A stretch of 64,000 nucleotides of DNA from Gossypium raimondii (lineage: Eukaryota > Streptophyta > Magnoliopsida > Malvales > Malvaceae): the NCBI RefSeq assembly GCF_025698545.1, contig NC_068569.1, positions 12,648,001-12,712,000 on the forward strand, read 5' to 3'. Numbering within the stretch: position 1 is the stretch's first letter; every line of letters begins with the position of its first letter. Positions 4,198-57,631 of the stretch are shown here, piece after piece. The translations under genes were made by a program, and so were the position numbers. Below the pieces are notes generated by a model. That model did not search any database and was not told where the DNA came from. It saw nothing but the letters and a program-made list of their open reading frames with translations.

Positions 4198-4239
4198 CTC
4201 AACATTCTTAAGAAGTGGTTCGGTGAGAAAAAGAAAGTG

Positions 4240-11510: not shown

Positions 11511-11550
11511 AGGCTGTAATAAGAAATAATTAAGAGCTCAACCTTTTAGA

Positions 11551-20004: not shown

Positions 20005-20773
20005 GGGTTTTTTACACAAATAATACAAAAAAATATCAAAATAATACAGGCATTTTATTATGTACCAAAATGGTACAAACAGTAGTGGAGGGACTGCCAC
20101 AGGCGGCACCAATGGTGCCAGTGGCAGAGGCGGCACCCCACATTTGTTCGTATTTTTCTTATTTTCGAATTTTATTACTTTCAAAAAATATACTATTTTT
20201 ATATTTTATTATTTTATATTATTTTATTACATAAAGTTTGAAATGTATTAATTTAGTGTGTTTTTTTATATAAATTTTGTAAAAAACCCTCATTTTGGCC
20301 ATTTGTTCGTATTTTTCTTATTTTCGGATTTTATTACTTTCAAAAAATATACTATTTTTGTATTTTATTATTTTATATTATTTTAGTACATAATGTTTGA
20401 AATGTATTATTTTAGTGTGTTTTTTTATATAAATTTAGTGAAAAACCCTTATTTTGGCCATTTGTTCGTATTTTTCTTTTTTCGGATTTTATTACTTTCA
20501 GTAAATATACTATTTTTGTTTTTTTATTTCTTTTCGTATTTTATTTTTTCATAAACATATTTTTTCGGTATTTTATTTTTAAAACTATTTTTATAAAAAA
20601 TCCGAAAACAAGAAAAATATGAACAAAGGGGGGTGCCGCCTGCGACAGTGGCACCTTTGGTGCCACCTGTGGTAATCCCTCCACTACTGTTTGTACCATT
20701 TTGGTCATAATAAAATGCTTGTATTATTTTAATATTTTTTTAATTTTTTATATTATTTGTGTAAAAAAACCCC
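20005..20773. mobile_element. Non-autonomous Mutator-like foldback element with internal tandem repeats
   Basis: The left arm begins GGGTTTTTTACACAAATAAT. The reverse complement of the right arm begins GGGGTTTTTTTACACAAATA. The arms stay similar for about 140 bp, through CATTTTATTATG, ACCAAAATGGTACAAACAGT, AGTGGAGGGA and a GC-rich CAGGCGGCACC block. Flanks AGAATCCGA (19996-20004) and AAAATCCGA (20774-20782) match at 8 of 9 bases, the 9-bp duplication expected of Mutator elements. The centre holds about three tandem copies of a unit near 158 bp, starting CATTTGTTCGTATTTTTCTT at about 20141, 20300 and 20459. No transposase frame. Confidence 0.8.
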
Positions 20774-32874: not shown

Positions 32875-33120
32875 CTAGTCGTGTTGAGGGTCCGGTCCTC
32901 CAGGTGAAATTCTTGAGACATCCGTCAATACCCTCTTCCCATCATGCTTCATTGCAGGCAAATCATAGCCTGTCAATGCCTTTATAATGGATCGGCTGTC
33001 GATCCTTTTCTGCATTGTCTTACGCCCACCATAACTCTTTGCTTCTAAAATGCTGATTGCATTTCCTGACAAAATAAGAAAGATGACTAGGGAAGCTTGG
33101 ATGACGGTTGAGTTAGGCAT
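32875..33120 (-). CDS. CLE signalling-peptide precursor, copy A
   Basis: An 81-residue precursor. Residues 1 to about 26 are a signal peptide (MPNSTVIQASLVIFLILSGN...). A variable, Lys/Arg-rich middle follows, and the 12-residue CLE box RISPGGPDPQHD (70-81) ends the protein with no tail. CLE peptides are secreted, proline-hydroxylated dodecapeptides perceived by LRR receptor kinases such as CLV1/BAM types; the SPGGPDP core is that of the Arabidopsis CLE1-7 group. Position 12 is Asp, where His or Asn is usual. A longer in-frame ATG at 33201 is rejected: a TATAAAA box at 33221-33215 lies only 14 bp before it, whereas ATG 33120 gives a normal leader and a proper signal peptide. The gene is intronless. 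Confidence 0.9.
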   Translation of the reverse strand: MPNSTVIQASLVIFLILSGNAISILEAKSYGGRKTMQKRIDSRSIIKALTGYDLPAMKHDGKRVLTDVSRISPGGPDPQHD

Positions 33121-33214
33121 TGCTAAAATTAATACAAGCTTGAATATACTGAAGCCGGTGGGAGTGATCTGATGAGTAGTAGTAGTAGTAGGCAGTGGCA
33201 AGTGGCAAGTGGCA

Positions 33215-33221
33215 TTTTATA
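33215..33221 (-). promoter_or_regulatory. TATA box of CLE copy A
   Basis: TATAAAA read on the minus strand, 95 bp upstream of ATG 33120. It implies a leader of roughly 65-70 bases. Confidence 0.5.
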
Positions 33222-35480
33222 GTACCATCTATAATCCTATTCCATTGCACACGTCCAATATTCCACAGCACAGGAAGCTGACAAATCCTGAAGGGATATT
33301 AGTTTTTGTTTTTACATGGATTATAACTTTTCCTACCCATTACCAGATTACTTAATTATCCCACAAATTGCATAAAGGCTGAATCATTTGTCTTTGGTCC
33401 CCACATGAGCATACTCTATACTATATATATTTCATCATTCATTTCCCATTAAAAGTTGCCTACACAGTCATCACCGATATCATCGTCCAAGTAGGATTTG
33501 GGGCATTGCTTAAAAAGACAAAAAAAAACTTCAACAAAGTTTAGCAACCCATCCTTGGACTACAAGACAAGAAACAGACATATATTGCCAAATTCCATTG
33601 AAGTCATTCTTGCATTTGATTTCTGTCTTTTCCTTTAACCCAGAGTACGTGACTCTGAAAAACGGATTCATCTTTGCGCGCTTTACATGTTAGGACATAG
33701 TGTCCTTCCACATGGTGTTATATATAATATATAAGATGGCACCTATTTGATTCCCAATAAGTAATTTTTGTTGCTAATCCAACTTGCATTTGCTTTAGGT
33801 TTTTTGGATTTTGGCTCAACGCTGACTCGTAACCTTTTTCCTCTTACCTTTAAATCTTATCACCTCCCTAATCACATATCTCCATCTTTCTCTTGGACGA
33901 AGATCTTTGCAACTTTATATTTGGTTTCGTCAACGGCTGAATGATGTTCCAGTTTTTGTCTTTTTAAATTCCTAATCAAATCCATAATATATATGTCTTT
34001 TCATATAATCTATCATATTGCCAAATATGCAGTATCACTTGATAGATACACCTTATTTTCTGGCTAAAGATTGTCTTTTGCAATGGGATAATTGCATTCA
34101 CTCTTAAACTTTCAAAAATTATTGTTTTAAGGGAAAAATTATGCATAAACTTTGATCTAATATATAATTTTATTTTGTGTTATTTTATACTTGAGATATT
34201 AATTTAATTCAATTTTACAAATTATTAACACTGTTATCAATATAACATCATTTTATGTCTACATATTACATAGATAAATAATAATATTTATCCAATATAC
34301 AAACAAATTGAAATTAAAATGTTTTATCTATTTTTTAAATGTGTATAATTGAATCAAAATTAAAGTTTCTTATTATTATATATTACAAGGTAGACAACAT
34401 ATAAAAATAATCTTATGTGTCTTCATAAAATTTTGACAAGTGGCTATTCTCATTATTTGACTCATCAACAAAATATTAATGTTAATATGCTTTTAATATA
34501 CTTTTTATTAATTATTAATTTCTATTTTTATATGTTATTTTATCTTATTTTATGTTTTTAAATGCAATTATTTCATTTATTCACTTGGTTTTCTTTATAT
34601 TTTTATTTTAATAAATTTGACTCGTAAATTTAGTCATAAAATATATTTTAATATTTATTTATATTAATATAAATAAATTCTTTAAAGCCATTGAAAACAA
34701 AAGTTAATATTTTATATTAATATTGATATAAATATACAATTTATATCTAACATTGATATATAATATTACGTATAATATTACGTAAATTTCCTTAAAAACT
34801 AAAAAATGTAAGAACTAATTTTTTAACATAATAAATAAAAACAAATATTTTTCTTATCTGTACTATTATTTAAACTTTCAATTGAGTTAGTGTCACGAGT
34901 TAACTAAGCACCAACTTTATTAGGAAATTATAGGAATGCCCTTCAATAATTAAAATAAATAATATTATTTGAGGGCGTTTTAGTCTTTTCACTTAAATCC
35001 AATTAAAATATGCATATGATGGAATTTGAACCCATGCCAATCACATTAGTGAAACCTTTAATTTATCACTCAACTAAAGTTTTATTTTGATATTTTTATA
35101 CATTTTAATTTAATCGAATTGGTGCCGCAAGTTAAACGACTTAATATTGATGGCGACACCATAATAAGCAATTTAATTTATTTCTTTTCATTTTAATAAC
35201 GTGCATATTTCATGTATTATTATTAATTAGTTTCAAATAATATGTTTCATTATTTATTGTATGTTATTTTTAAACACACATTTATGTTCTAAATTTATGG
35301 TTTCCACACGCATACGTGTGTGTTAAGATTTCTAGTTTATTTTAGACTATTTAACATAAAAATAAAAGTTAAATAATGTTGGAACTTTTTATGATTTTTT
35401 TTTCTGTAATCTTATAATCATAAATCATAACCATAAATCATTCAAATTAAACATAAATCATATAATCATAACCATTTTAG
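33222..35480. other. Intergenic, very AT-rich
   Basis: Upstream sequence of CLE copy A, then AT-rich DNA without supported genes. A GAATTTGAACCCATGCC phrase near 35013 resembles a tRNA T-arm, but no cloverleaf could be built around it. Confidence 0.5.
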
Positions 35481-36529
35481 TTCATGATCACCATATTCAA
35501 CCTTTCTCGGGTCTTATACGAGCCTACATATGCTCTAGAATTGACCCGAAATCGAACAAGAACCAATTTGCAACAATTTTAAAATTTCAAAACGACATCG
35601 CGACGTGAAAGGTTTTGTAACGCCCCTAACCCGAATCGTCGTCGGAACAGGGTTACGAAGCATTACCGGAGTTTACAAATTAATTATCAGACATTTCATT
35701 TCATCTAGCATTCATATTTGAAACGAATCAAAATCGTACATATTGTCCCTTAAACGAGCCCTCGAGGCCCAAATTTACGCATTAGAAACACATAGGGACT
35801 AAGTCAAAAACTCAGAAAATTTTTCGAAAATATTTAAAGTTTCCAACACTGCAGGGGTCACACGACCGTGTTTCAGCCCGTGTTTGTACCCGTATGAGTA
35901 TATTGACTTGGGTCACACGCCCGTGTGCTAGGCCGTGTGAGCATTTTGTTTTGTGCAAATTTAAGATACAGGGGACACACGACTATGTCACCTGGCCGTG
36001 TGTGACACACGGTTGAGACACACGCCCGTGTCTTTGCTCGTGTGGATGAAAATAGACCATTTTACAAGCCATATTTCTCACCCAATTTTGTGTCTATCTA
36101 CAATCAACATTACACATATCAACAAGCCATAATTAGACATTCAAAACAAGCCAAAATAAGTGGCTAAACTCAACACACTACATATAAGCCATCATTAAAC
36201 AAAATACCTATACATGCCATTATAACCAAAATCAAAACTTTCAAAAATATCGATAGAACTGATGGATAGTGTGATATATCTTCGACAAGCTTCCAACCCA
36301 ATCAAGTTTCCGATAATTTGAAAAGTAGAAGAAAACAAATACATAAGCAATGAATGCTTAGTAAGCTCGTATAAAATTTAATCATAATACTTCCTTTTCA
36401 AATATGAAATTTATACTTATCAAGAATAATCTAATATTGCTACGACAATACTCATGAAGTTATATTTAACAACTCACTAAGTGAATAAATATACAGATCA
36501 CTTATACATAATATTCCTAGCATAGTAGG

Positions 36530-36959
36530 TGTAACAATCCAATTTTCAAGAGTGTCGAACGGTGATTTGAGATCACTAAATTTGATGAAAAGTTAGAAAA
36601 ATTTATTAATTAATAATTATAAGTTAAGCGTGATTTTAGAAATATTTTTGAATTAGTGAATTTTGTGATTTAAAAGAAATTATTAGGTAAATTGGTCGAA
36701 ACGAGGTATCGAGACCTCGATATTATAAATCGAGCCGTAAATATTTTTATAAATATTTACGGAGTGTCATTAGGGTAGTATTAAAGTTTCGTTAAGAAAT
36801 TTTAAAGTTTTGATGGTTAATTGATTAAAAGGATTAAATTGCAATAGAGATAAAAGTTTAATTAAAGATTAAAAAGTTAAAAGGACCAAATAGGAAATTA
36901 TGCCTTTTCTAAAGTTGAGGCGGCATAAGTAGATTTTTTTAAAATCTAAAGTTAAAATA

Positions 36960-37006
<47 letters not shown>

Positions 37007-37800
37007 TACTTAAAAGTTAAGTATAAATATTATATAATGTTAGATTAGATTATAATATATTATATTATATTATAAAATATAGAAAAGAGAATTGAAACAG
37101 AATTGAAAAACGAAAACAAAGAAGAAATAGGAGAAAGAAAGAAAGAAAAGAAAAAGGAAATTTTGGGGTTTCAAAGTTTAAAGTTAATTTGGTAAGTCAA
37201 TTTAATCCTTTTTTGTAATTTTGAGTTTTGGAGTTCTAGAACAAAATATTTCATGGTTTATGTTAAAATTTTGAAAGATAGTTTATTTTAGACATGAGTT
37301 ATGTTGAATTAATTGACGAATTAGGGGTTAAATTGATTGAATTTCAAGTTAGAAGTTAGTAAAGGGTTGATTTGTAAAATAAATTATAGGTTTTGAATTA
37401 ATAGGGACTAAATTGAGAGAATTTCAAAATTAAGGATTTATGGTGAAATTAGAGAGGTAAATTAGTTTAAAGTGGGAATGGAATGAAAATATGAAATTAG
37501 TTTTGAGAATAAAAGTTAGTATCGGTTTAGGGACTAAATTGAAATTTAGGCAAATATTGAGTAAAAATTAAAATATTTAATGTGAGATTGAATTGTATTG
37601 TATTGATGATTTTTAATTGTTTTAATTTCGTAGCTAGCGTTGTACCGAAATTCTCGACTAAAAAGGGAAAAAAATATAGTCGACGAGGAATAACTCGGAA
37701 TTCTTAGTTTGTATTTCTATAATCCGAATCTAATTATTAATTGTTGTATTTTAAATTAAATGTTATGGTAAGTGATTAAGGTGAGAATTATTGTTTTCTT
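36530..37800. mobile_element. Inner LTR fragment nested in the middle layer
   Basis: Begins TGTAACAATCCAATTTTCAA. From about 36700 to 37740 it parallels 42990-43970: shared phrases include GGACTAAATTG repeats, TTTTAATTGTTTTAATTTCG, GTAGCTA(G/A)CGT(T/C)GTACC and CTAAAAAGG. The right limit is where this similarity stops. An (ATT)14 run occurs at 36961-37002. Confidence 0.5.
36961..37002. repeat. (ATT)14 microsatellite
   Basis: An uninterrupted ATT trinucleotide run inside the inner LTR fragment. Confidence 0.9.
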
Positions 37801-39549
37801 TTTTACAATTGATAATTCAGTAATAGATATGAATAAATACATAATATCATTCATCAATTTAATAAATAAATATTAAAGTTTAACCATACAAACTTACGAA
37901 TTGAATTGTAATAATTGTAGGAGTTCGAGACTATTCGCTATTTTTCCTTTTTATGAGTATCTATGAAATCTTAATCTAAAATATAAAATTACTAATTCAT
38001 TAGCATATATTTCAGTTCCAATTCATTTAACTATTTATACCCTTCTATTTTTTGAATTTACATAATTACCATAAGTTTTACAAGTTTTACAATTTAGTCC
38101 ATTAACTAATTAATCTATCAAATCAACTAATTTTCCTCAATTAATAATTTATCCAAATATTCTAGGCTATCAAACAGCCCTTAATAAAACAAAAATTTAA
38201 TACCAAACTCTAATATTTTAACCATTTTCACAATTTGATCCTAACACCAATATTTAACAAAATCACTTTATAATATCATCATACAAAAAAATTAAAGCTC
38301 TAAACCCACTTGATATTAATAATTTCTTTCAATATATTAATTTAGATAATAAAAATTCATTTTATGCAATTTGGTCATTTTTATATTTTTACAAAATTAC
38401 CCTTAGAGTTTTTCTTTTATTCAATTTAGCCCCGAGCCTAAAACATGCAAATTAGCCATTTTAATGTAAATCCATGCTAGTTGAATATTCATATATTTTC
38501 CTCCTCCTCCTCTCCATTCCACATCCTTAATGTATATAACATGCTTATATGTAATATTATCTATAATTCTACTATTTACTTATGTTCATATCAAAGTTGT
38601 CCACTTGATTCATAGTTAATAAATTATTTATATCTTGAGCTACAGAATTCTAAATTAAGATTCGCTTGATGTTTTTGAAACTAGACTCAAATATATTTCT
38701 ACTATAAAATTTTCAGAATTTATAGTTTAGCCAATAAGTACAAGAAAATCTTCAAATTTATCCCTATTCTGCTGTTTAAAAGCTTTGACCTTTGCTTACT
38801 AAAAATTAATTATCTCTTAGTACAGGGTTTGGATGATGTTTCTGTTTGTTTCTCTTGAAAATAGACTCATCAAGAATTTAAATAGATAAATTTAAACCAT
38901 TGATTATTTTTTTACAGTTTTTTATGATTTTCCAATGTCAGAATAGGGGAGCCCGAAATCAATCTAACCTTGTCTCACAAAAATTCATATATCTCATAAT
39001 ATGAAATTATTTTGCTTACACCGATTCTTCTATGTAAAACTAGACTCAATAGGATTTAATTTAATATTTAATTAACCTCTAATTTAATTTATACAATTTT
39101 GGTGAATTTTCAAAGTCGACTCTCTGCATTGTCTAAAACTATTTTAGTGTAAAATGTTTATAACCAAATTTATAACACCCTCCTTTCCTTTCTCTACAAT
39201 ATTTCCCATCACTTCCTCTTATTTCCCTTCACTAACATATCAAGAACATAGAAACTTATATAATAAAACTCTACTTTAACATCATTTTCATAATTTTTCA
39301 ATAATATCAAACTCAAAAATATATTGAAATCTTGATGTTCTTACCTTGTGATCCTATTGATTTCAATCTTTAACTTGATTTTCTCTCTCCTCCAGCTTCT
39401 ATTTCTTGAATCTAACTTGATATTCTAGCTCCCCATTGTCTCCTTATTATTTTTCTCTCTTGGCAGCTATGGAAATTCTTTTGATTTCTAAGTGAAAATG
39501 GTAAATTTTTTGTAAAAGGACCAAATTGTAAAGAAAGGAAAATTTCTTT

Positions 39550-39576
39550 CTTCTCTTCTCTTCTCTTCTCTTCTCA
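39550..39576. repeat. (TTCTC)n minisatellite
   Basis: About five copies of CTTCT/TTCTC in tandem. Confidence 0.8.
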
Positions 39577-42500
39577 CGTGGGTGCATGGAAAGACGATGA
39601 AAATTCTTCATCTTTCTTTCCTTTTATACTAAATAAAATAATAATAAAATATCTTATTAAAATATTAATAAAATAATATTTATCTAATTAAATAATTATA
39701 AAATATCATCAAAATATCTCTAATATCATCATTGCCTTCTAGAGTTCTCTCTCTTTCTAATTGACCATTTTTCCCTTTATAATATTTTAAAATTCCATCA
39801 TTGAGTCATCACTTAATTTAGTAAAATTACGATTTAGTCCCTCATAATTCTTCACCTATTCAATTTGGTCTTAATTCATCCATTTTCCTCAGTTTCTAGA
39901 TCATTCCACCCTTAAAATATTTGCACTATTGGTCCTTAAACTTTTTCATATTTACACTTTAACCCTTCAAAATTTGAGTATTTACTCTTGGGCAACAAAA
40001 CTTTTCTCACTTTTGCGATTTAATCATTTATTAAATTAATATGTTTTAATATATTTCCCAATGTTGACATAACTCAAAATTTCCCTTTTTGTCACTTTAT
40101 TTCCTTATTTTACTATATCAAGGATACTATCTTACGTTCTTACTGTAGTAATTTTCAGGGTATTACATGTTTCCTCGTTACGACGTGACATACTGACTTG
40201 CCTCGTTGTGATGGCAAGGTTTCTCATCACGTCGTGGCCCAGAGTCCAGGTCTCGTCATGACAACCATCACTTGACATCGTGACGTGGACTCTGTTTTTG
40301 ACACAAATAAAGCTTTTCGGCACCTATTTCAAGGCAACCATAACACTGCCTCATTTGGTGCCTATTTGCACCTTTGTATCTACATCATACTAACCAAAAT
40401 ACATTCCATAACATTCATTTAACCATTTCCCAAAACCAATCAGGCTAATATGCCTCAATTTGGCACCATTTTATACCAATTCAACCTATTCAAATGTCAC
40501 TTATACAACCATGCTTTTAAGCTATTCAAACCAACATTTAACCATGTCATATCAAGCTTAATTATGCTATTCAAAATTTCATATACAATATCATGCAAAT
40601 TACAAAATCAAACATATACAAACTTAACATTAGTTTGCACAAAATCAAGCATTAACCAACGTTTCAAAACAAACTAACATTTTTTTAAGTTAATATAGCA
40701 ACACCTATGTACATGCCACAAATCCGAGTCTAAAACGATTAAAAGACTACTGAATAGATGGTAGGATAATGTGGTCTTCAAGCTAATTCGATCAAAAAAT
40801 TTCACAAATAACGATCTACAAGGAAAAGGAAAAGTAACGGATAAACATAATGAATGCTTAGTAAGTCTATATGAAATTTACTTAACTTACATTGACATTT
40901 ATAACAATTTAGCAATTAAAACAAATTGGTGCAAACATGACATCTTTTGGCAACATTATATTTTCATGCACAATTCAATCACACAATCACTAAGTTAGTT
41001 CATTTGCAGATCAAACCATAATACCAAAACCTTGTACATATATAACCATTTCATATTATAACATATACTATTAATTATGCTCAATTTATAAATATCACAT
41101 TTCAGTTCACAATCAATCATTTCATTTCCGTTTTTAACTACTATTTTCATTTTTGTTTCGCCCGAAAAACTATAGCAAAATGAACTCGGATATACAAGAC
41201 TAATTTGGTCATACAAGCTATCATAATCAGGTTGCTCACAAGAGCTTAGTTCGATGATGCTAACACTAACTTTAGAGATTCTGCAACATATGTTGGATTT
41301 CAAGCCATCGTATTATCTCTGATCAAACACCCATTTCCCTTTTTCGATTGAACCATTTCCTTTTTCGTTTGGAGCTTAATGACATGTCACCATATCCTAA
41401 TCGTTTATTAAGTTCACACGAGCTCTATTACGATATTCAATTCATTCCAATACCTGTAATATCATCATATACATATCATTCAAGAATATAAACATTTCAC
41501 ATCTATTCCATACATCATGTTCACTTGTAATATTATATTTCTCATACTTAGGATTTGGTCCTTTAGATGCCAAAATCGTCAAAATTGTAATTGACCTAAA
41601 CTAATAAACATTATAAGATACATTTCAAACACAACATAAATAACATAGTAAGTTTCATATGAACTTACCTGGAAAAAAATCAACAAGCAAGATGTCGAGA
41701 ACTAATCTGAAATTTTGTCTTTTCCTCGATTATCCTTCAGTTGGTTCAAATCCTGATTTGTATGATAACTCATTTGAGTTTATCAATTCCAAATACCTTA
41801 TATCACCGTACTATATGCATATGAATTTTCAATTTCACTTTTTGAATGTTCCCTAAACTTTTTCATTTTATTCAATTTAGCCCCTAAAATCAAAATTGCT
41901 ATAACTTTCAAATTTGAGGTTTGATTTCAAAACCGATCTCAATTACATCCTTATATAGCCTTAAATTATCTATAATTACAAAATATAACATCAATTTCAA
42001 ATTTTATGCACTTTAGTCCCATAAACTAGCAATTAAATTTTACAAACTAGTCCTTTTTTAATATCTAAGCTTAAAATCTAACAAATTAACACTAATTTCA
42101 TCAAGCATTCAATAGTAGTAACTTTGGAAAACTTCAACAAAATTAAAATTGATGCACAAGCTAGCTAAGTCAAGCTTCCGGGACCTCAAAAACATAAAAA
42201 TTACAAGAAAAAGACTAAAAAAATCATACCTAAATAAAGGTCGAATGCTTGAAGTATAAAAAGGGGTTTTCTTCTTTCAAATTTAGGTGAACATGAAGAA
42301 GGTGAAGAAATCTATCATTTTTTTTCTATTTTGTCTTTTATAGTTTAATTAAAATTCAGTTAAATTGAATTAATCAAAATTTAACCTAATTAATTATAAT
42401 TAATTAACTTTAATCAAATTTAACAAATTTAGTGGGTTGTAATCAACATCCACCACCTGTTTGGCTAATATAAAATGGTTAATTTGTTCATTTGGTCCTT

Positions 42501-42954
42501 CAACTAATTAAAAATTTAGAGCGATTAATTGTTGCCATTTTTACAATTTAGTCCTTGCACCTTAATTAACTATCCATTTGACAAAATTAAGGGACCAAAC
42601 TTTAATAAAACTTTATACTAATCTCATAAATATTAATTATTGGAAATGGGGTTCCGAAAGCACCATTTTTGACACCATTGAAAAACGAGCTATTACATTC
42701 ATAATTGCCTCTCCTAACAATGTTCTCCAAAATTTAAAATTATATTATTTTTAATTTCAAAGTTATATTAAATGTATAAATATATTTTATAAAAAAATGT
42801 CTTTATTAAATATATTTTTATATTAAATTTAATAAAATTGTGTGGGATGCAAATTAATACCTATAATTAAACCACAATCAAAATTTAATATCTATAATTA
42901 TACCAAATCAGAGTTTACCTGCATCAAAATTCATGTATAATTTTAATGCTTGTC

Positions 42955-45239
42955 TGTAATTACCCGATAGTCAGAGGTGTCAGAAAGTGCATTCTCGGGA
43001 CTCCATTTTCGTAAATCAGAATAAATATTTACGAAGTTAGTTGTGTAGTTAATTAGGTTTTGGTTAAGTGAAATTGCATGAATTAAGAGTAATTAGGTAT
43101 AAGGACTAAATTGCATATAGGGTGAAAGTTGAATTAGAGATTAAAGAAAAATTACAGGGACTAAAGAAACAATTATGCCATTGTTCTTTAATAGGGCGGC
43201 GTAAGGTAAGATATTTATAAATTTAATATATATTATAATAAAATAAGTTTACTTAATATTTAAGTATATATATTATAATAATAAATTAATGTATAATAAA
43301 ATAAAATAAGTAAATGAATAAAAAAATAATAGAAAGCCAAAGCAAAACGAAAAAGAAAAAGAAAGACGCAAGGCTTAGGGACTTCTAGGGTTCAAAGCTC
43401 AACTGATTAGTCAATTTAGTCATTTTTCTTGTAATTTTTATGTTTTTGGAATTCCGGTGTTAAGTGCTACCCGACCCATGTCAAAATTTTAGCAATTATT
43501 AAGTTTTTAAATGTTGTTAATGTTTAATAATTTTAGTATTAGGGATTAAATTGATAGATTTTAAGTTAGAAATGAAAAGGATTAAATTGTAAAATAAATT
43601 GTAAATTATGAGGAATAGGGACTAAATTGTAAAAAATCAAAATTTAGAGATTTAAGTGAAAATAGGGAGTTAAATTTAGTTTAAAGTGGAAATTGTATGA
43701 AAATATAGAATTAATTGTGAAGAATAAAAAGTAGTCTCGGTTTAGGGACTAAATTAGAATTTAGGAAAATATTGAATAAAAATTGAAATATTCAATATGA
43801 AATTGAATTGTGTTGTATTGATGAATTTTAATTGTTTTAATTTCGTAGCTAACGTCGTACCGGAATCCTTAACTAAAAAGGGGAAAGATAAAGTTGACGT
43901 GGAATAGCTTGAAATTCCTGATTTGTATTTTTATAATTCGAAACTAGTTATTAATTCTTGTATTTTTTTTTATTTAATGCATATGACAAGTATTGAGGTG
44001 AATATTTGGCACTTTGACATTGAGTTGAATTAAAAGTTGATTGAATGGATTGAATTTATATATATATTATGAATATACTGATTATTTGAATTGAAATGAA
44101 TATATATGTGCAAATATGATAATTGAATATTGGTTGTATTTAGAAAGTGAAATTAAACTCTATTAATTGTATTGGACTGAGTCGGATATAGATGGCATGC
44201 CATAGGATTGGAAGAGTTCAGAGATTTCTTCGACTTCGAGTCGATGAGGCACTGGGTGCCAATGTACTTCGGTTTAACCGATGAGACATTAGGTGTCAAA
44301 TTTATATAGCGCTGGGAGCAATTATTACTTCGGATTTATCCGATGAAGCACTGGGTGCCAAACTGGTGTGTTGGTTGGATCCGTGTATCCGTTCGAGTCC
44401 AAGTTGTGTTAATAGGGGTAATTAAATAAAATAGTACTATGATTGATATTGGATGATATTGTATGTGAATGGAAATGAGATAGTGAATTGAAACATGAAA
44501 ATGAGACACATGAATTACGTATTCATGAATTGGATATGGATTGAATAATATTATTGTTTAAATGATATATATATATATTAAATTGTGAAAATCTATTATA
44601 TAGCAAGTGATGAGATTTGAGAATGGTATAAAATGATGTATTTATGAATTGAATATTGAATGGCTAATGTCATTGTATGAATAAATGTGCTTATAATTAA
44701 AATATGCATATTATATTATCCTTGTTTTTAAATATTCGAATTATAGAAATACCACTAGGTTTTACTTAGTGTACAGTTTTGTTTTCCGTGCGCAGATTAG
44801 GTACTTCAATTTTGAACGCCGATTTAGCATCCAACAACGCTCCCGAACTCAAATGTGGTGATGTCTATCTTTTGTGTCGACATGTACCTAGGGTGTCTAA
44901 ATAATAGTTATTTTATGGATTGAATGTAAATGAGATTATAAGTTTAATATTGGTTGGTTTTATACATATAAATATGTGTTTGTTTTTGAATCCATATTAT
45001 GGCATGGTAAATTGAACTAAACCTAGATAGGTGAATGTGAATTTAATCCTATGTTTAAGTGCTCATGAACTAGGCAAATTGATTTGGATTTAGTATGTTT
45101 ATAATTTGGATTAAAGTGATGCTTTGATGATTTGTTTTGATGATATGAAATGTTTGAGAATTCTGCCTGTTTGATCGATAAACTTCGGTAATGCTTCGAA
45201 ACCCTATTCCGGCGACGGATATGGGTTAGGGGTGTTACA
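42955..45239. mobile_element. Probable solo LTR, 2.3 kb
   Basis: Begins TGTAATTACCCGATAGTCAG and ends GGGTTAGGGGTGTTACA. The right end, read on the minus strand (TGTAACACCCCTAACCCATA, then CCGTCGCCGGAATAGGG), matches the start of the LTR at 35616, so the two are related copies in opposite orientation. Flanks TTGTC (42950-42954) and TTATC (45240-45244) agree at 4 of 5. Around 44225-44370 there are about three imperfect repeats of a unit with ACTTCGG(T/A)TT, CCGATGA and GCACTGGGTGCCAA. No coding frame. Confidence 0.6.
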
Positions 45240-46038
45240 TTATCCTTTATTTTAATAAAAAATATTAACAAATAATAATATTTTCCTAATGGATTAGAGT
45301 TAATTTTATTTTCGATGTATTATTATAGAACTATCAAATTTGAGGTTGAAGTTAAAGGAATGCATGTGCTTTAGTACATTTGTTAATTATCAAGTTAAAG
45401 AAGTGCATAGTACTTAGAATATCTTATGATCATGGTATAAAAACTGAAAATTGGAACATTGATTTATGTCGACCGAAAACGGAAACATAAAATATAACAT
45501 TCCATGCCTTGTGTTCCTCAAGTGGACACATTTTGATGTTTTTATCTACAGATATTTATAGTAGAGGAAGAGAAAGATATAAGTTTTAAGGAGATATGAA
45601 TTTTATTTTACTCTTTAAAGAAGATATCACTGTGTACTCGTTGCATAAGTTAGTATTATTCTCTTTACATGTCCACTTACTTCGTATTATCGCTATTTTA
45701 GGACGTGGGTATCATGCCCATAAGTCGGCATTATCATCTTTGGATGCCTGTTAACTTCTCAAAACTATATTATCTAAACCCGCGTCTCTCAATATTCAAA
45801 CTCATACCCTGAAGAGTCGGGTAGATCAAGGCTTGGGTTTGAACATGGGGAGATGTTCTTTTAGATAATAATTTTGAGGAGTCAATAGGCATCCGATAAA
45901 AAGATAATACGTACCGATTTATGGCTATTGACATCGACACCCTAAAAAGGTAGCGGTACCGTGTTGGCTGGTGGGCTGTGATAATGGTATCTTCTTTAAT
46001 GAGTACAACGGAGCCACCTCCCATAAGAAAACTAGAAT
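45240..46038. other. Intergenic, 3' side of CLE copy B
   Basis: No supported gene. Short open frames lack family similarity. Confidence 0.5.
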
Positions 46039-46254
46039 CTAGTTATTTATGAAGTGGTGGTGGGGGTCAGGTCCCCCAGGACTTGTTCTCTCAGGCTGTT
46101 GATACCCGTTTTTCTCAGCTTCTTTGTTCAGGTACTGTCTCCAGGCCTCGATGGATTGTTTTACATTCGTCTTCTCTATCAAGAGGCGACTTTCAGAGGC
46201 TGCAGACAAAAGTAAAATCAAGGTAAGGCACATCAGACACCTAAAGATAGACAT
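46039..46254 (-). CDS. CLE signalling-peptide precursor, copy B
   Basis: A 71-residue intronless precursor. MSIFRCLMCLTLILLLSAAS is a compact signal peptide (about residues 1-20). A short variable region follows (about 21-55), then the CLE box RTSPGGPDPHHH (56-67) and a 4-residue tail FINN. Of the 12 box positions, copies A, B and C share R1 and S3-P9 plus H11. A TATAAATA box at 46298-46291 lies 37 bp before the ATG, so the leader would be very short. As a CLE1-7-like peptide it would act outside the cell on an LRR receptor kinase; the specific receptor is unknown. Confidence 0.9.
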   Translation of the reverse strand: MSIFRCLMCLTLILLLSAASESRLLIEKTNVKQSIEAWRQYLNKEAEKNGYQQPERTSPGGPDPHHHFINN

Positions 46255-46290
46255 TGTTGCTTTGACATGGGAAGTAGAAGAGGCTTCCCG

Positions 46291-46298
46291 TATTTATA
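46291..46298 (-). promoter_or_regulatory. TATA box of CLE copy B
   Basis: A perfect TATAAATA on the minus strand, 37 bp upstream of the ATG at 46254. Confidence 0.55.
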
Positions 46299-49200: not shown

Positions 49201-49690
49201 TCTCAAGTCATTCCTACCATAATAGTCAAAGTAATCTCAACCCAATGAAAAATAAAATTTGAACATATTGTTTAGCTAAATAGAGAAAGCTCCAAATAAA
49301 TGTAATATTTTCTACAATTAAATTTCATGTCATTTTTCACATGTCCGTTACACAAAAAACTTAAATACAAAATTTTTTAAAAATGTCAAATTCAAGTATG
49401 AAATGTTTTAGAATTGTTTAGACATTTTTTTACCAATAAAGCAATCAATCCCATTTAATAGATCAAGAGTCTAAGTGAGATGCAAATCATCGAGTCTATT
49501 AGGCAAAACCAATTTTTAGTGGCTTTTGTCATGCACAATACCATCCGGTTCTTATGAGACTCAAGCCAAACCTCGAATGTTGTTAATGAGCTTAGAGCAG
49601 TTCGATTTGAATATAACTTTAATCTTTTTATTTCTAGTATTTTTTACCCTAATTACATTGTGTGTGCCTCGGTGTCATGGTCTGACATTG
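46299..49690. other. Intergenic region
   Basis: Includes the CLE B upstream region. At 48750-48900 there are three or four tandem-like TTTGGTA(C/T)(C/T)TAAACTT phrases, a common plant repeat motif. No gene is supported; a 103-codon minus frame at 48439-48128 is unrecognised. Confidence 0.5.
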
Positions 49691-50446
49691 TGGCTACATT
49701 GCCACTGTGACAACCCACTGGGTGGAAAGGACGAGGCCAAAGTCTAGGGACAAGAGTTCCCCAATGATGGATCCTAAGGGGCAAGTGTCTTGCAAGAAGC
49801 ATCAAGTAAGTAACATGGCAAAAAGCCATGAGTGGACAAGGTCGAGGGGGTGGTGGTCCCATGCAATGAGTTGAGGCGATGAGTAGCCCAAGTGTGGGGC
49901 AAGCATGCTTGGAGAATGCCCATAAGATGGCCATGGAGTGCCAAATAAGAAAACTCTCTGTGTTCCCTACAAGGATAGTTATAAAAGCTATTTAGCTCTT
50001 TAGGGGGTAGCAAAAGGTGTTAGCTCTCCACCTCCCCCTCACATTGGCTAGTTGATAAGGTTTCCTTGTTGTAAGTAAGTTGCTCCATGGCAAGCGAGAT
50101 GTTATGGTGTGCGTTCACTGGCAAGTGGATGCTCTATGTCTCTTCGAGAGGAAACTCGGGGATGGTTTGGGGCCAACGAGCCTCGTACCGTGTAGTGGTT
50201 GGAAAGCTAGGGGTCGACCATAGATTTTATCTAAGCCCTGCGGGATCCTCCACCCAAAGTCTATTAGGTTGTCTTTGGGATCTTAAGATGATGCTTTGTA
50301 GGAGGAGCATCAAAATGCGACGGAACATCGAGATAACTAGCAGGCGAACTAGCTACTAGTATTGTGGGAACACAGAGATAGAAATTAAGCATAGTGCTTA
50401 GAGCTAGGACAGTGCACTAGGGCAATCCTTGCGTTGAGTGCATGAT
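49691..50446. repeat. Older repeat interrupted by the copia element (left part)
   Basis: GC-richer than its surroundings, starting near TGTGACAACCCACTGG. Similar composition resumes at 55385, directly after the copia target duplication, with phrases such as GGGGCAAGTGAGCTTGACCC and GAGCTAGAAGCACCC, and runs to about 55830. It is probably a degraded LTR-type repeat into which the copia element jumped. Confidence 0.4.
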
Positions 50447-50916
50447 TGTTGAAGTTGGCCTGCATGCAGACAAAGAAGCAGACCAAACTGCCGAGCCATG
50501 CAATTGCAGCTGAAGCTCATGCTGCTAATTTTCATTTTGTTGCTTCAAGTGTTTATTTTGTAACTTAGTTAGATTAGAACTAAGTTGGTAATGTACTTGA
50601 TGTAATTAGGTGATGTTTGAGCTGATAAATCAGCTTTACTAAGTGTGCAAGTTAAGTTTATCAATTTACTAGGTTATTAATGGAGTTAGGTGATGATTAG
50701 ATGACATTGTATCATTTTGACCAACTGAAATACTTGGTATTTGTAATGGCTTTATGCCTCAATTCAATTGTGATGATATCTTTTAGAAATTATTCTTCAT
50801 TCTCTGGTTTTTTACTCAAGTTCTTAAGCTAAATTTTCTTTTTTGTTCAGCAATACATCAATGCTTCTTGCTTAATCTTCTGTCAAATTTCTCATGTTGT
50901 TTTCTTAATTCCAACA
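50447..50916 (+). repeat. 5' LTR of copia element
   Basis: 470 bp, TG...CA ends (TGTTGAAG...CCAACA). Same length as the 3' LTR. Confidence 0.95.
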
Positions 50917-50918
50917 AT

Positions 50919-50931
50919 TGGTATCTAGAGC
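50919..50931 (+). other. Primer-binding site of copia element
   Basis: TGGTATCTAGAGC, two bases after the 5' LTR. The usual copia site pairing with initiator tRNA-Met is TGGTATCAGAGC; here one extra T is inserted. Confidence 0.8.
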
Positions 50932-50974
50932 TCATTTTCTTAGTGTACCTATCATTTTTTCAATCTTAAAAACC

Positions 50975-51839
50975 ATGTCTTCATCCAGATTCTCTCCAGC
51001 TCTACCACCAGTGTTCAATGATGGAGGCTATCATATTTGGGTAGTGAAAATGAAGACCTACTTGCAGGCATTCGACTTGTGAGAAGTTGTCAACTCTAAT
51101 ATTGAACCACACCCTTGAGAGCCAATCCCACAGTGGCTCAGATCAGGCAGCACTCTAATGATAGAGCCAAGAGATACAAGGCCATGTCATACATCTAAAA
51201 CCGTATATCTGATGTAATTTTCACAAGGATAATGGCTTGTGAGTCTTCAAAATAGGCCTGAGATAAGCTCAAAGAGGATTTTCAAAGCACTGAAAGAACA
51301 AGGCAACAACAACTCTTGAATTTGAAAAGAGACTTAAAAATTTGAAGATGAAGGAAGAAGAAACTGTGAAGCAATACTCAGACAAGATTATGTCTGTTGT
51401 GAACATCATCAGATTGCTTGGGGACCAGTTGAGTGAAGCAAGAATAATGGAAAAGGTTATTTCAACCTTACCTGAAAGATATGAAGCCAAGATCTCATCC
51501 CTTGAAGACTCAAGAGATCTGTCAAGCATCACTTTGACTGAGCTGATTAATGTTCTTTATGCTCAGGAGCAAAGAAGAGCCATCAGACAAGAAGAGCATC
51601 AAGAAAGTGCCTTCCAAGCCAAGAGTAGACCAACCTCGAGCTCCTCTGGCTACAAAGGGAAAAAGATTTTGTCAGACAAGCCTAGAAGAGATGGAGCAAG
51701 AAGAAGATATCCACCTTGCCCACATTGCAAAAGGCTTAGTCATCCAGAAGTAAATTGTTGGTTCAGGCTTGATGTGCAATGTGAAATTTGCAAAAATATG
51801 GGCCATATTGAAAAGGTTTGCAGAAACAAAGGCAAATAG
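50975..51839 (+). pseudogene. copia gag (capsid) with two zinc knuckles
   Basis: ATG at 50975 in context AAACCATGTC. The start region has the UBN2/gag motif YHIWVVKMKTYLQAFDL and then a TGA where Trp is expected, and more stops and frame changes before 51342. From 51342 to 51839 the frame is open (KQYSDKIMSVVNIIRLLGDQ, then ISTLPERYEAKISSLE). Two zinc knuckles follow, CPHCKRLSHPEVNC and CEICKNMGHIEKVC, both C-x2-C-x4-H-x4-C. Confidence 0.85.
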
Positions 51840-54800
51840 AGGCAAAACCAGCCTCAATAGCCTAAAGCTGAGGCTCAAGTGGCAGAAGAAGGCTGTGACC
51901 AAGAGGAACAAGTCTTTGCAGTGTCCTGCTCAGCTGCTAGAAAAAGAACAACAAAAGGGTGACTGATTGACAGTGGTTGCACAAACCACATGACAACTGA
52001 TGCTGTTATCTTTAAAAACATAGGTAGAAACTTCAACACAAGAGTAAAAGTTGGCAATGGACACTTCACCAAAGCAGAAGGCAAAGGAGATGTGCTGATT
52101 GACACTCCTACAGGTATCAAACGTGTTTCAAATGTATTTTTTGTACCTAAAATTGATAAAAATTTACTTAGTATAGCTCAACTGCTTAAAAAGGGTTATT
52201 TAGTTGTGTTTAGATACAAGGAATGCCTAATCAGTGATCTAAGTAGATCCAAATTCATGTCAGTAACCATGGCTGACAGAAGTTTTGTTGTGGACTGGAA
52301 CAAAAGTTCAAACAGTGCCTACACAACAATCTTAGATGAGTATAAGATATGGCACAAAAGGCTAGGTCATGCTAACTACAAGTCACTGGTTCAGTTGACC
52401 AAAGGGGACATGGTTGAAAACTTCACCAAATCAGTTGAGAAAGAGGATTTTTGTGAAATATGTCAGCTAAGAAAGCAAGCTAGACAACCATTTCCTTTGA
52501 AAAAAGCCTGGAGAGCCTTAGAAAAGTTGTAGCTAGTCCACACTGATGTGTGTGGCCCTATGAAGACACAATCCTTGAATGTTAGTAGGTATTTTATCCT
52601 TTTCATTGATGATTTCTCAAGGTTTTGCTGGGTATACTTTCTAAAGCACAAGTCAGAAGTGGCCTCAATATTTTGGAAGTTCTAAGCTGTAGCAGAAGCA
52701 GAATCAGGTTGCAAGCTCAAGATACTAAGGTTTGATAATGTCATAGAATACACTTCAGCAAGATTTCATGGCTTTTGTGATGAAGCAGGCATCAAACACC
52801 AGCTCACCAATACCTACACACCTCAATAGAATGGTGTCAGTGAGAGGAGGAATAGAACCTTGATGGATATGGCTCGATGTTTAATATTTGAAAGGAATTT
52901 GCCGAAGATTTTTTGGGCTAAAGCATTTAACACTGTAGTTTACCTCCAAAACAGGCTACCAACCAAGGCTTTGGTTTAAAAACCACCATCTGAGGCCTGG
53001 TTTGGGTTCAAGCCATCAGTTGCTCATCTAAAGGTCTTTGGCTGCATTTGTTATGCACACATGCCTGTAGTAAAAAAGGACAAGCTGGCAAAAAAGGCTT
53101 AGCCTGGTATCCTAGTATGCTACATTAGTGTCAAGAAAGGCTATAGGATTTTGAACCCTACATCCAATAGAGTTTGTGTGAGCAAAGATGTAGTCTTTGA
53201 TGAGAAATCAAGTTGGAACTGGGATAAGAATGAGCCAAAATGTGCTGCTGAAGACTGGTGACAGATCAGATTGAAGGTGATCAAGATGATCTTGAAATGG
53301 ACATTGATGATGAGCTAGTCAGGGAAACCAGACCACTGGCTGAAATTTATGCAAGAGCAGATGTAGCTACTGTAGAACCAACTTGTCTTGAAGAAGCTGA
53401 AGCTCAACAAGGATGGAAACAGGCCATGCTCGATGAAATGAGCATGATTGAAAAGAATCAGACCTGAGAGTTAGTTGCAACGCCAGTTAACAGGAAGGTC
53501 ATAAGAGTAAAATGAGTGTTTCGAGCTAAGCACAATACTGATGGAACTCTGAACAAGTTAAAGACAAGGCCGATAGTGAAGGGATTCAATCAGAAGTATG
53601 GCATAAACTACTTTGAAACATTTGCACTAGTGGCTATGCGACACAATTAGGCTATTGGTTGCTTTGGCTGCACAGAAGCAATGGAAAATTTATCAACTCG
53701 ATGTTAAATCTACTTTTCTCAATGGTTTTCTTGATGAGGAAATCTATGTTAAACAGCCTGAAGGTTTCAAAGTTGCAGGCAATGAGGGCAATGTGTATAA
53801 GCTAAAAAAGGCATTGTATGGCTTAAAACAATCACCAAGAGCCTGGTATGACAGGATCAACACTTACCTAGCAAGCCTGGGATTCGAGAGAAGCATCAGT
53901 GAGCCAACCTTGTATGTGAAGAAAGAAGGTGTTGAAACACAGCTTATAGTCTCCTTATATGTGGATGACTTGCTGGTTACAGGAGGAAACAATGACATGT
54001 TGGTTGAGTTCAAAGACAAGATGGAAAGCATGTTCGAGATGTCAGGCTTGGGACAAATGTCCTACTTCCTTGGAATGGAAGTGTCACAGACTCAACAAGG
54101 AATTTTCTTAAGTCAAAAGGCATTTGCCTTGAAGATTCTGAACAAGTTCTCCATGTTGAATTGTAAAGTAACAAGTACACCAGTTGCTGTTGGAGAAAAG
54201 CTGACCAGCCAAGGTAATTTTGAGAAAGTAGATAAGTCAACTTACAGAAGTTTGGTTGGATGTTTACTTGACAGCCACAAGACCAGACATCATGTGTGCT
54301 GTAAGTCTCCTATCCAAGTTCATGCATTGTTGTAATGTGAGTCATTTTCAAGCTGGCAAGAGAGTTCTCAGGTACATTAGAGGTACATTGAGCTTTGGAA
54401 TGATGTTCCCCAAGGTTGAGAGCATGAAACTCATTGGTTTTGCTAATAGTGATTAGGCTGGTTCGATAGATGACATGAAAAGCACCTCAGGGTATCTGTT
54501 TACCCTTGGATCAGTCATTTTTTATTGGAATTCAAAGAAGCAAAGTGGTGTAGCTCAATCAACAGCTGAGGCAGAGTATATGGCAGCTGCAGGAGTTGTT
54601 AATCAAGCTATTTGGCTAAGAAAAATCATGGCCAATTTGAATCTACACTAAAGGGAAGCAACGGATATCAAATGTGACAATAACTTTACTGTTACAGTTA
54701 CAAAGAATCCAGTGTTTCATAGGAGAACCAAGCACTTCAAGATAAAGTTTCATTTTGTTAAAGAGATGGAACAATCTCAAGAAGTTAAAATAATTCATTG

Positions 54801-54909
54801 CAGTTCTGAATATCAGCTTGCTGACATCTTGACAAAGCCTCTTTGTGTGTCAAGGTTCAAGGATTTGAGAACCAAATTGGGAGTATGCAGCATGCAAGCC
54901 AAGGAGGAG
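51840..54909 (+). pseudogene. copia pol: protease, integrase, reverse transcriptase, RNase H
   Basis: Protease core LIDSGCTNHM near 51963. The integrase has the zinc-binding H..H..C..C (WHKRLGHANY, CEICQLRKQ) and DVCGP/DFSR/NGVSERRNRT blocks, with stops between. The reverse transcriptase has QLDVKSTFLNGFLDEEIYVK and the YVDD catalytic motif (53958-53969). RNase H has STAEAEYMA and the tail ADILTKPL. Most stops replace Gln, Trp or Glu (e.g. after TPQ at about 52828, after NSD at about 54453, after NLH at about 54650), a pattern expected from cytosine deamination. At least three frame changes occur. Confidence 0.9.
54901..54909 (+). other. Polypurine tract of copia element
   Basis: AAGGAGGAG directly before the 3' LTR; it primes plus-strand DNA synthesis in this family. 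Confidence 0.75.
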
Positions 54910-55379
54910 TGTTGAAGTTGGCCTGCATGCAGACAAAGAAGCAGACCAAGCTGTCGAGCCATGCAATTGCAGCTGAAGCTCATGCTGCTAATTTTCATTT
55001 TGTTACTTCAAGTGTTTTTTTTGTAACTTCGTTAGATTAGAACTAAGTTGGTAATGTACTTGATGTAATTAGGTGATGTTAGAGTTGATAAATCAACTTT
55101 ACTAAGTGTGCAAGTTAAGTTTATCAATTTACTAGGTTATTAGTGGAGTTAGGTGATGATTAGGTGACATTGTATCATTTTGACCAGCTGAAATACTTAG
55201 CATTTGTAATGGCTTTATGTCTCAATTCAATTGTAATGATATCTTTTAGAAATTCTTCTTCATTCTCTGGCTTTTTACTCAAGTTCTTAAGCTGAATTTT
55301 CTTGTTTGTTCAGCAAGACATCGATGCTTCTTGCTTAAGCTTCTGTCAAATTTCTCATGTTGTTTTCTTAGTTCCAACA
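54910..55379 (+). repeat. 3' LTR of copia element
   Basis: 470 bp, pairs with the 5' LTR. Visible differences include CCAAGCTGTCG versus CCAAACTGCCG near its start. Confidence 0.95.
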
Positions 55380-55384
55380 ATGAT

Positions 55385-56689
55385 GTTGGATGTTTATGCT
55401 TGAGATGAGCCTTCAATGGGGCAAGTGAGCTTGACCCTTGGAGTAGCCATTATGGGCAACGTGATGAGCTAGAAGCACCCTTTAGTTGGTGAGTGGCCAA
55501 CAATTGAGTAGTGCCATTGGGTTATGGCACTTGAGATGCGACAAGCGAGCGTGGATTTGGTGTTGGGTTCCACCAAGCCTTGAGCCACCATACCTTGCAT
55601 CTTGGAAAATGATGGTCAATGCTCAAGATCATCGATGGAGATAATAGTTGAGACGTCTTGCGTAAGGCCAGATTAAGCGAGAGGCCTTTAAAACAAGACA
55701 TCGGTAAGAACTAATATAGTCCACGGAAAAAAAGATATGAGAAAACTTGATTATAACTAAAAATAATAATGGTGCCACACGAGGTTGTACTGTTCAGGTC
55801 AACGGCGGTTTGTGACACTCAACTAAGAGGGCAGAAGAAGTGTTGGCGTGGACATTGCCACCATCAATAAACCATAAAAATAAATACTAATAATTTTTTA
55901 TTTTTTATTTGGTTATGAATGTAATAAATAGCATATTAATTGTACAGGTTAAAAAAGTGTCCGAAAAGAGAATATAGCTTTCCTCCTGGAGCAAGCTTTA
56001 GATGGATTTATTTTCTGTTTCTTTAACTTAGAAAGTGACATAAAGGTGCTTCAAGTATGAATTATCCTCGGTCTTTTGTTAACCGATAAGACCGGATTCA
56101 CTTTGATTCCGAAAGTGATGCTTCTTTGTATGATATCAGTGTAAGATTTCAGCACTGAAATGGGATGATCCAACTTGTAGGTTAGTAGGATATTATATAT
56201 AGGGCTGTTTATATTATCCATGGATCATGATCACTTCAAAATCCTAGTTAATGAAGCCACTGAGCACCGCCCAACAATGGTTTCAGTTAGGCTATATATA
56301 TTTGTGGTGTTTTCTAATCTTTTATGTGCCTTTCTTAGTATAATATTAACCATTCCCTTGGACACTAAGCGCGTCTTTCAATGATGTCCCAAAGAAATAA
56401 GTAAAGAAAAGGGTAACAAAAAGTTCAGAAACTGCAGTAGACTACTTTTTGTAATTTAAATTAAAAACTATACTCCTACAACACTTGAGCCACGTCATTA
56501 CTCCTTCAAATAAGAGAATCCAAGTACTAATCCCTCCCCCCATACTATCAAAATTAGGGGAAAAGAAGAACAATTACATTCCTCAAAACCCTCCGGTGAA
56601 GTCATCTAACATGTAGCAGAAGCATTCATAAAATGACAAACTGAGAATAAGGGGAACTTTTTCATATGTCGTTATTTGAATTTTAAATT
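55385..56689. other. Flank of copia element and spacer
   Basis: The first ~450 bp continue the older repeat seen at 49691-50446. After that AT-rich spacer with no supported gene. Confidence 0.45.
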
Positions 56690-57278
56690 TAATGTTAGGA
56701 TTATATCATTAATCACTAAACTATAGATAAATTTTGTTTTGATCACTTAATTAAAAAAAGTTATAATTTGATCATTGAATTAATTAAAAAAAGTTATAAT
56801 TTGATCATTGAACTATTTGAAAGTTTTACTTAAGTCATTGAACTATTCAAAAGTTTTTATTTAAGTCATTGGACTATTTTTTTTTTTAAGTTTCGACAGC
56901 GAACTCCAAGTGACAATTCGATGATTGGTACGGTGGATCAGTACCCATAAACAAGTAAAAAAAAATACCTTAGATCCAAATCAATCTGACGGTCAGTGTA
57001 GGAGAACGGAAAAAAAACTGTTTGAATTTTAGTTTGCAAATTCATGACGTCCAAAATTATTTCATGAAAAGAAACTGAAAGATAGAAAAGAAGAGAAAAG
57101 ATCTTTCTATTGGTGCAAACAGTACGAATAAAAAAAACCATATAACATCGGTTTTAATAGTCCAATGACTTAAATAAAAACTTTTGAATAGTTCAGTGAC
57201 CAAATTATAACTATTTTTAGTTAAGTGATCAAAACAAAAACTTACCCATAGTTTAGTAAGTAATTTACCCTAACATTT
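56690..57278. mobile_element. Foldback MITE next to CLE copy C
   Basis: The left arm reads AATGTTAGGATTATATCATT and AATCACTAAACTATAGATAA; the right arm reversed reads AATGTTAGGGTAAATTACTT and ACTAAACTATGGGTAAG, and both go on to TTTTGTTTTGATCACTTAA and TTTAAGTCATTGGACTATT. The inverted arms span about 190 bp (left) and 140 bp (right). The left arm also has a short internal duplication (AAAAAGTTATAATTTGATCA twice). The middle carries an unrelated ~250 bp. Ends and target duplication are approximate. Confidence 0.65.
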
Positions 57279-57312
57279 ATTACAGAAACTAACCGAACTT
57301 GACACTAGTTTG

Positions 57313-57558
57313 CTAATGATGGATGGAGTGATGTTGGGGATCAGGACCACCGGGACTAACTCGTTTAGACTGGTACAGGTTATTGTTATCGATTTCATTT
57401 TGTGTACGCCCAATCTTAAAAGCTTCCCTGGCAGCCAATGCTCGAATGGACCTAATCAAGTCCCGTCCCTCTGTGTATGGACCAAGAGGACGACCATCTG
57501 ACCTTGGAAAACAAACTAGTAGCAGTAACAGGTACAGATGGAATTTCGAAATTGCCAT
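57313..57558 (-). CDS. CLE signalling-peptide precursor, copy C
   Basis: An 81-residue intronless precursor. MAISKFHLYLLLLLVCFPRS opens a signal peptide cleaved near residue 22. The variable region (about 23-65) includes LIRSIRALAAREAFKIG. The CLE box RVSPGGPDPQHH (66-77) is followed by the tail SIHH. From memory this dodecapeptide is identical to that of Arabidopsis CLE5/CLE6, extracellular peptides of the CLE1-7 group connected with root and shoot growth responses. A TATATATA box at 57631-57624 lies 66 bp before the ATG. The 3' end is 35 bp from a foldback MITE, so the transcript probably runs into it. Confidence 0.93.
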   Translation of the reverse strand: MAISKFHLYLLLLLVCFPRSDGRPLGPYTEGRDLIRSIRALAAREAFKIGRTQNEIDNNNLYQSKRVSPGGPDPQHHSIHH

Positions 57559-57623: not shown

Positions 57624-57631
57624 TATATATA
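57624..57631 (-). promoter_or_regulatory. TATA box of CLE copy C
   Basis: TATATATA on the minus strand, 66 bp upstream of ATG 57558. Implies a leader of about 35-40 bases. Confidence 0.5.

Follow-up and report, generated by a model that had tools for sequence, protein, structure and literature searches.

A stretch of 64,000 nucleotides from Gossypium raimondii (contig NC_068569.1, C5:12648001-12712000 in a genome of 750.8 Mb and 281 contigs), which we refer to as the window, contains three genes for precursors of CLE peptides, and a fourth lies just beyond its end (Table 1). The preliminary description, made from the letters of the window, had reported three uninterrupted CLE open reading frames (ORFs) on the minus strand, each with its own TATA box; translation of the ORFs and a profile scan bear this out, the frames of copies 1-3 being open from ATG to stop. 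The scan used a 12-position CLE profile which we wrote from general knowledge of the family: in the six frames of the window, copies 1-3 are the sole places that match at 9 positions or more, and each of them matches at all 12. The chance level was taken from 20 simulated windows (first-order Markov), which contain a mean of 0.7 places that match at 9 or more of the 12 positions; a match at 10 or more does not occur in them.

In all four precursors the CLE box lies at or near the C-terminus and contains the core SPGGPDP, which we take to be the hallmark of Arabidopsis CLE1-7; the membership of this group that had been proposed is compatible with the core. The lengths of the precursors are inside the range of 60-120 residues given for CLE precursors in a paper that treats CLE1-7 as a single group (PMC2254619). 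All four precursors have a hydrophobic stretch within their first 35 residues. In copies 1-3 its Kyte-Doolittle maximum over 11 residues is 2.67-3.05, while a maximum of at least 2.5 is reached by 11% of the 63 ATG ORFs of at least 60 residues in the window; judging from this composition, copies 1-3 are likely to carry an N-terminal signal peptide. Regarding the TATA boxes, the probability that a TATA[AT]A motif starts at -110 to -30 of a random position is 0.17, so that finding it three times out of three by chance has a probability of about 0.005.

The fourth gene was found in a genome search with copy 3, which returned four matches: one of them, 110 bases beyond the window end, is a CLE gene with the same orientation. 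No further CLE core was found in the 20 kb that precede the window or in the 50 kb that follow it. The coding regions of copies 1-2, 2-3 and 3-4 are separated by 12.9, 11.1 and 6.6 kb, and the array spans about 31.5 kb. Three genes do lie in the window, but the cluster, described before as one of three, has at least four members: the end of the window cuts it, and the count of three is an effect of this edge. The finding is real and its first description good; what this description lacks is due solely to the cluster running on past the window end.

Other searches with these sequences gave little. The only Pfam match of the three window precursors, a Spo0E-like one of copy 2 (E 0.024), is below the cut-off and was taken as chance. 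A sequence search of the PDB with copy 3 returned nothing, nor did scans of the window for tRNAs and for Rfam families (at the gathering threshold). The box string SPGGPDPQHD was not found in the literature searched.

Table 1. Genes and other features of the C5 locus, numbered from the first base of the window
Feature	Position	Strand	Remarks
CLE precursor, copy 1	32875-33120	minus	81 residues; box RISPGGPDPQHD at 32878-32913; last residue Asp
TATAAA, copy 1	33216-33221	minus	starts 101 bases ahead of the ATG
CLE precursor, copy 2	46039-46254	minus	71 residues; box RTSPGGPDPHHH at 46054-46089
TATAAA, copy 2	46293-46298	minus	starts 44 bases ahead of the ATG
CLE precursor, copy 3	57313-57558	minus	81 residues; box RVSPGGPDPQHH at 57328-57363
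TATATA, copy 3	57626-57631	minus	starts 73 bases ahead of the ATG
CLE precursor, copy 4	64110-64364 (with stop codon)	minus	84 residues; box RLSPGGPDPKHH; outside the window
Ty1/Copia element, between copies 2 and 3	50447-55379	plus	long terminal repeats (LTRs) of about 475 bp; target-site duplication ATGAT; gag, pre-integrase and RVT_2 pieces
Diverged direct repeat pair, between copies 1 and 2	36749-37784 and 43021-44001 (interval 36749-44001)		71%
Class-3 lipase gene	4237-5545	plus	two ORFs, of which only the second (4946-5545) matches Lipase_3; low-coordinate flank
Second class-3 lipase gene	11556-12901	plus	tandem relative of the first

Related genes and segments in the genome

An exact search of the whole genome with the pattern CCNGGNGGNCCNGAYCCNNNNCAY (PGGPDPxH) gives 14 occurrences, and its reversed control none. 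They form two arrays of four, the one on C5 and another on C1 (5447170 to 5487323, all on the minus strand), and six singles: C5:50179938, C6:59596260, C8:2365007, C9:562432, C10:2414465 and C11:61555770. This census took exact matches only, so that diverged copies, such as the C10 pseudogene described below, are outside the 14. The box of the C11 sequence, RAVPGGPDPLHN, belongs to a different type. The C8 sequence is a CLE pseudogene akin to the C1 array, with in-frame stops ahead of an intact RRSPGGPDPRHH box. Genes 2 and 3 of the C1 array are near-identical, recent duplicates (dS, the synonymous divergence, is 0.089).

A paralogous segment of the locus is on C10. When the ORFs of a 134-kb C5 stretch are compared with 40 kb around the C10 CLE gene, the C10 segment is found to be collinear with C5 but inverted, and reads: IQD-like gene, short gene, copy 4, copy 2, lipase. 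The C10 relative of copy 4 is 74-76% identical to it. The counterpart of copy 2 (2416436-2416648, 61%) has decayed to a pseudogene: a stop interrupts its frame and its CLE box is altered. The two are 1.9 kb apart on C10, compared to about 17.9 kb on C5. The similarity extends to the upstream regions, that of copy 4 matching that of its C10 relative and that of copy 2 that of the pseudogene.

The neighbours of the CLE genes support this comparison. The window lipase ORF has 19 matches in the genome, the best of which, besides itself, is C10:2453096 (77%); beside it are two more lipase relatives, at 2447112 (52%) and 2432056 (51%, with one in-frame stop). In the list at E 1e-10, five lipase matches in all are at the C5 and C10 loci, and none is near the C1, C6 or C9 CLE genes. 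Five matches to the IQD-like exon reach E 1e-10, the exon's own locus counting as one, and three of the five are at CLE loci: C5:12717168, C10:2395351 (82%) and C1:5575183 (58%). The name IQD comes from an IQ motif below the Pfam cut-off (E 0.002; 18.2 versus 20.3 bits) and from the appearance of the sequence; the exon alone has no Pfam match.

The array on C1 is placed between a BET-bromodomain gene and the IQD-like relative. The former is ahead of the array, 8 kb off (Pfam BET 4e-23, bromodomain 3e-21), and the latter is 88 kb from the closest C1 CLE gene. We link C1 to C5 because of this IQD-like gene and because a gene of the copy-1 type is found at the same, low-coordinate end of both arrays. 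The nearest paralogue of the C1 bromodomain gene, C5:50158215 (75%), is 20 kb from the lone CLE gene of that region (C5:50.18 Mb). More bromodomain matches (47-50%), C10:2560691 and C5:12253327, are on the lipase side of the C10 and C5 CLE loci, the lipases being about 0.1 and 0.4 Mb away; these matches are possibly part of the same ancestral block. Last, C6 and C5 have in common a copy-4-type CLE gene followed by exons of another gene, in the same order and on the same strand.

The tree of the CLE genes has 14 rows; the C8 pseudogene was left out and Arabidopsis has no rows in it. Copy 1 groups with the genes at C1:5447170 and C9:562432 (89/97); these three have a 'GYDL/GFDL' stretch in common, which is presumably also present in CLE5 and CLE6. 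Copy 2 groups with the C10 pseudogene (92/96), and three C1 genes with the gene at C5:50.18 Mb (97/99), whereas the branching order of copies 3 and 4, the C10 gene and the C6 gene is not settled by the tree. These groupings make the window copies three sublineages of one type rather than recent duplicates.

The synonymous divergence is large. It amounts to 0.97 between copy 4 and its C10 relative (with a ratio of nonsynonymous to synonymous divergence, dN/dS, of 0.13), 0.41 between copy 2 and the C10 pseudogene, and 1.25 between copy 4 and the C6 gene. Five pairs of C5 copies were counted, pair 1/4 being left out: dS is 1.6 for pairs 3/4 and 1/2, and saturated (undefined) for pairs 2/3, 2/4 and 1/3. 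Pairs among the C5, C10, C6 and C9 genes have 40-56 synonymous sites, and single dS values are rough because the genes are this short. For copy 1, dS is undefined with respect to C1:5447170, 3.1 with respect to C9 and 1.6 with respect to copy 2, values that are too large for a dN/dS to be trusted.

Regarding the flanks, the window has TPP-enzyme ORFs (23.6-25.6 kb) and a PPR ORF (29.3-30.9 kb) in the space that separates copy 1 from the lipases. A 113-base tandem duplication (98%, window 23460-23678) overlaps the 3' end of an ORF of a TPP-enzyme gene, a 159-base tandem repeat is present in 2.5 copies at 20141-20529, and a 39-base tandem duplication (11544-11629), located where the listed second lipase ORF starts, repeats a short peptide stretch.

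Age, spreading and fate of the array

We consider it likely that the C5 locus is what survives, partly spread, of an old array in which CLE peptide genes of the CLE1-7 type (A-type), whose precursors are probably secreted, stood in tandem; that copies 2 and 4 at least were adjacent before the duplication that gave the C5 and C10 segments; and that copies 2 and 3 of C5 were parted by a transposon. After the duplication, copy 2 would have decayed on C10, and similar genes would have multiplied on C1. The array is probably older than the segment duplications behind its C10 and C1 relatives, since the C10 segment keeps the order and orientation of the genes and the C1 array has IQD-like and BET-bromodomain neighbours. 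It had been called ancient in the preliminary description, and it does look so, from the collinear C10 segment, the weaker C1 one and the large or saturated synonymous divergence.

The Ty1/Copia element makes up 4.9 of the 11.1 kb that separate copies 2 and 3. Its LTRs differ at 24 of 475 aligned bases (95% identity), and a sequence resembling what we take to be the usual primer site adjoins the first of them. With assumed rates of 2.6e-9, 7e-9 or 1.3e-8 substitutions per site and year, the age of the element comes to 10, 3.7 or 2.0 million years; as far as dS can be relied on, the CLE array is much older. The element, and the short distance between copy 4 and copy 2 on C10, agree with the earlier proposal that the array was pulled apart by LTR insertions. 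The other gaps do not bear this proposal out. The one between copies 1 and 2 holds only the diverged repeat pair: its interval is a possible old LTR element, but a TG..CA search gave no target-site duplication, so that we did not accept it as proven, and the longest stop-to-stop frame in the stretch of it that was checked has 105 codons. Between copies 3 and 4 there is no LTR pair, in scans that see repeat pairs only, miss solo LTRs and fragments, and end at window position 64000, 110 bases short of copy 4.

Several observations weigh against the reading of the locus as the remainder of an old array. None of the three window precursors matches a CLE model in Pfam. The tree is poorly resolved, with 1 of its 11 inner branches starred and 6 open, and the window copies fall in separate sublineages. 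The non-CLE matches to C5 ORFs in 20 kb of flanking C1 sequence are all weak or transposon-like. The 40 kb of C10 compared hold nothing that matches the TPP-enzyme and PPR ORFs, so that the collinearity of C5 and C10 is incomplete. Apart from the two known genes, no relative of copies 1 and 3 was found there either, and these copies could therefore be later gains on C5.

It may indeed be that most of the C5 copies were gained within the lineage, with copies 2 and 4 alone being ancestral and copies 1 and 3 having been added later by local or dispersed duplication. That C10 has relatives of copies 4 and 2 only, with no third exact core match, fits this idea, and CLE arrays do multiply locally, as genes 2 and 3 of the C1 array illustrate. 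Against it, copies 1 and 3 are very diverged, as the saturated or high dS of the C5 pairs indicates, and a copy-1-type gene stands at the corresponding end of the C1 array; we regard such later gains as rather unlikely.

Another hypothesis is that one or more copies, copy 1 foremost, are non-functional or decaying, that is, open but unexpressed, with a box that drifts from the consensus. Copy 1 ends in Asp, while the remaining 13 exact core matches end in His or Asn; such an acidic last residue is unusual, and it also speaks against our own reading. Relatives of these genes do decay, the C10 copy 2 and the C8 copy being pseudogenes. However, the three ORFs of the window are intact and their TATA boxes stand at plausible distances, which makes this an unlikely explanation.

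A locus that emits several ligands, whose residues 2, 10 and 12 would give receptor preferences that are used together, is quite improbable. The boxes of copies 1-3 do differ at exactly positions 2, 10 and 12, as had been noted from the start, and strand and core are common to all copies; but the Arabidopsis CLE1-7 peptides also vary at such positions, and the upstream regions of the four C5 genes (1.2 kb each) show no mutual similarity at E 1e-4, so that common control is not suggested. Besides, CLE1-7, which are called monophyletic, are reported to have overlapping functions, CLE3 acting via CLV1 (PMC10413670).

If the C5 locus is the remainder of an old array, as we propose, each of its genes would code for a small, probably secreted precursor, from which the C-terminal box would be cut out and modified, by analogy with Arabidopsis CLE1-7. 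The mature peptide may then be sensed by receptor kinases of the CLV1/BAM type. CLE1, 3, 4 and 7 are reported to be induced by nitrogen deficiency (PMC4776436), and the C5 peptides would probably be nitrogen-, sugar- or infection-linked root signals. Considering these analogies, they are likely to be largely redundant CLE ligands for CLV1-type receptors.

Comparison with known CLE loci

Arabidopsis locus numbers follow chromosome order, and we use them here as a measure of adjacency. According to published numbers (CLE1 At1g73165, CLE3 At1g06225, CLE4-7 At2g31081-85; PMC4416448), CLE3 and CLE1 are near the BET-bromodomain genes GTE4 (At1g06230) and GTE3 (At1g73150; PMC10451976), respectively, and CLE3 is also near the class-3 lipase At1g06250 (PMC3770635), which suggests that similar kinds of neighbours flank Arabidopsis CLE genes. 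Likewise, the CLE loci of C1 and C5:50.18 Mb are near a BET-bromodomain gene, and those of C5 and C10 are near class-3 lipases. The difference is that in G. raimondii no single locus was seen with a bromodomain gene and a lipase both close, while the Arabidopsis adjacency is read from locus numbers. No paper on microsynteny of bromodomain and CLE genes was found in the literature searched.

The C5 array resembles the CLE4-CLE7-CLE5-CLE6 cluster of Arabidopsis chromosome 2 (At2g31081-At2g31085), where four genes of the CLE1-7 group are also found together. They are within 16.5 kb, CLE5 and CLE6 being head to tail and about 1.7 kb apart (PMC6508849), and by its number the lipase locus At2g31100 is nearby (PMC3770635). 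Unlike this cluster, the C5 array extends over some 31.5 kb and contains a Copia element. The two are likely to be counterparts at the level of the locus.

In cotton, 55 CLE genes have been reported for G. raimondii, and most cotton CLE genes, above all those of groups V-VII, are intronless (PMC8213210); a description of the C5 array was not found in the main-text portions of that paper, nor anything on the C5 locus in the portions consulted of PMC7930028. In poplar, tandem CLE pairs are likewise of low similarity (PMC4776436).

The legume nodulation and nitrate CLE arrays GmNIC1-RIC1 and LjCLE40-RS2-RS3 are also dispersed, the latter being within 24 kb (PMC5570945), and belong to the group most similar to AtCLE1-7 (PMC5570945, PMC4526924), but differ in that their rhizobia-induced members form a branch of their own. 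It is possible, if somewhat doubtful, that all CLE1-7-type genes of G. raimondii and of Arabidopsis, and perhaps the legume nodulation arrays, come from one ancestral locus (GTE bromodomain gene, class-3 lipase, CLE array, IQD-like gene) and were spread mainly by genome duplication, that the peptides which control nodulation were recruited from within this array, which the rosid ancestor would already have had, and that copy 1, given its acidic last residue, is a locally diverged ligand. Reliable trees of CLE genes are out of reach because the precursors are too short and diverged, as our own tree shows. The conserved neighbours (the bromodomain gene, the class-3 lipase and the IQD-like gene) could be used to assign orthology independently across rosids, and could help to trace the origin of the nitrate- and rhizobia-induced CLE peptides. 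The most useful addition of this work is that, since the neighbourhood is shared, a common origin of the CLE1-7-type loci becomes testable. Taken alone, the C5 locus is an intact CLE array of an ordinary sort; it illustrates a known type of locus well, is no new system, and is useful as a synteny anchor.

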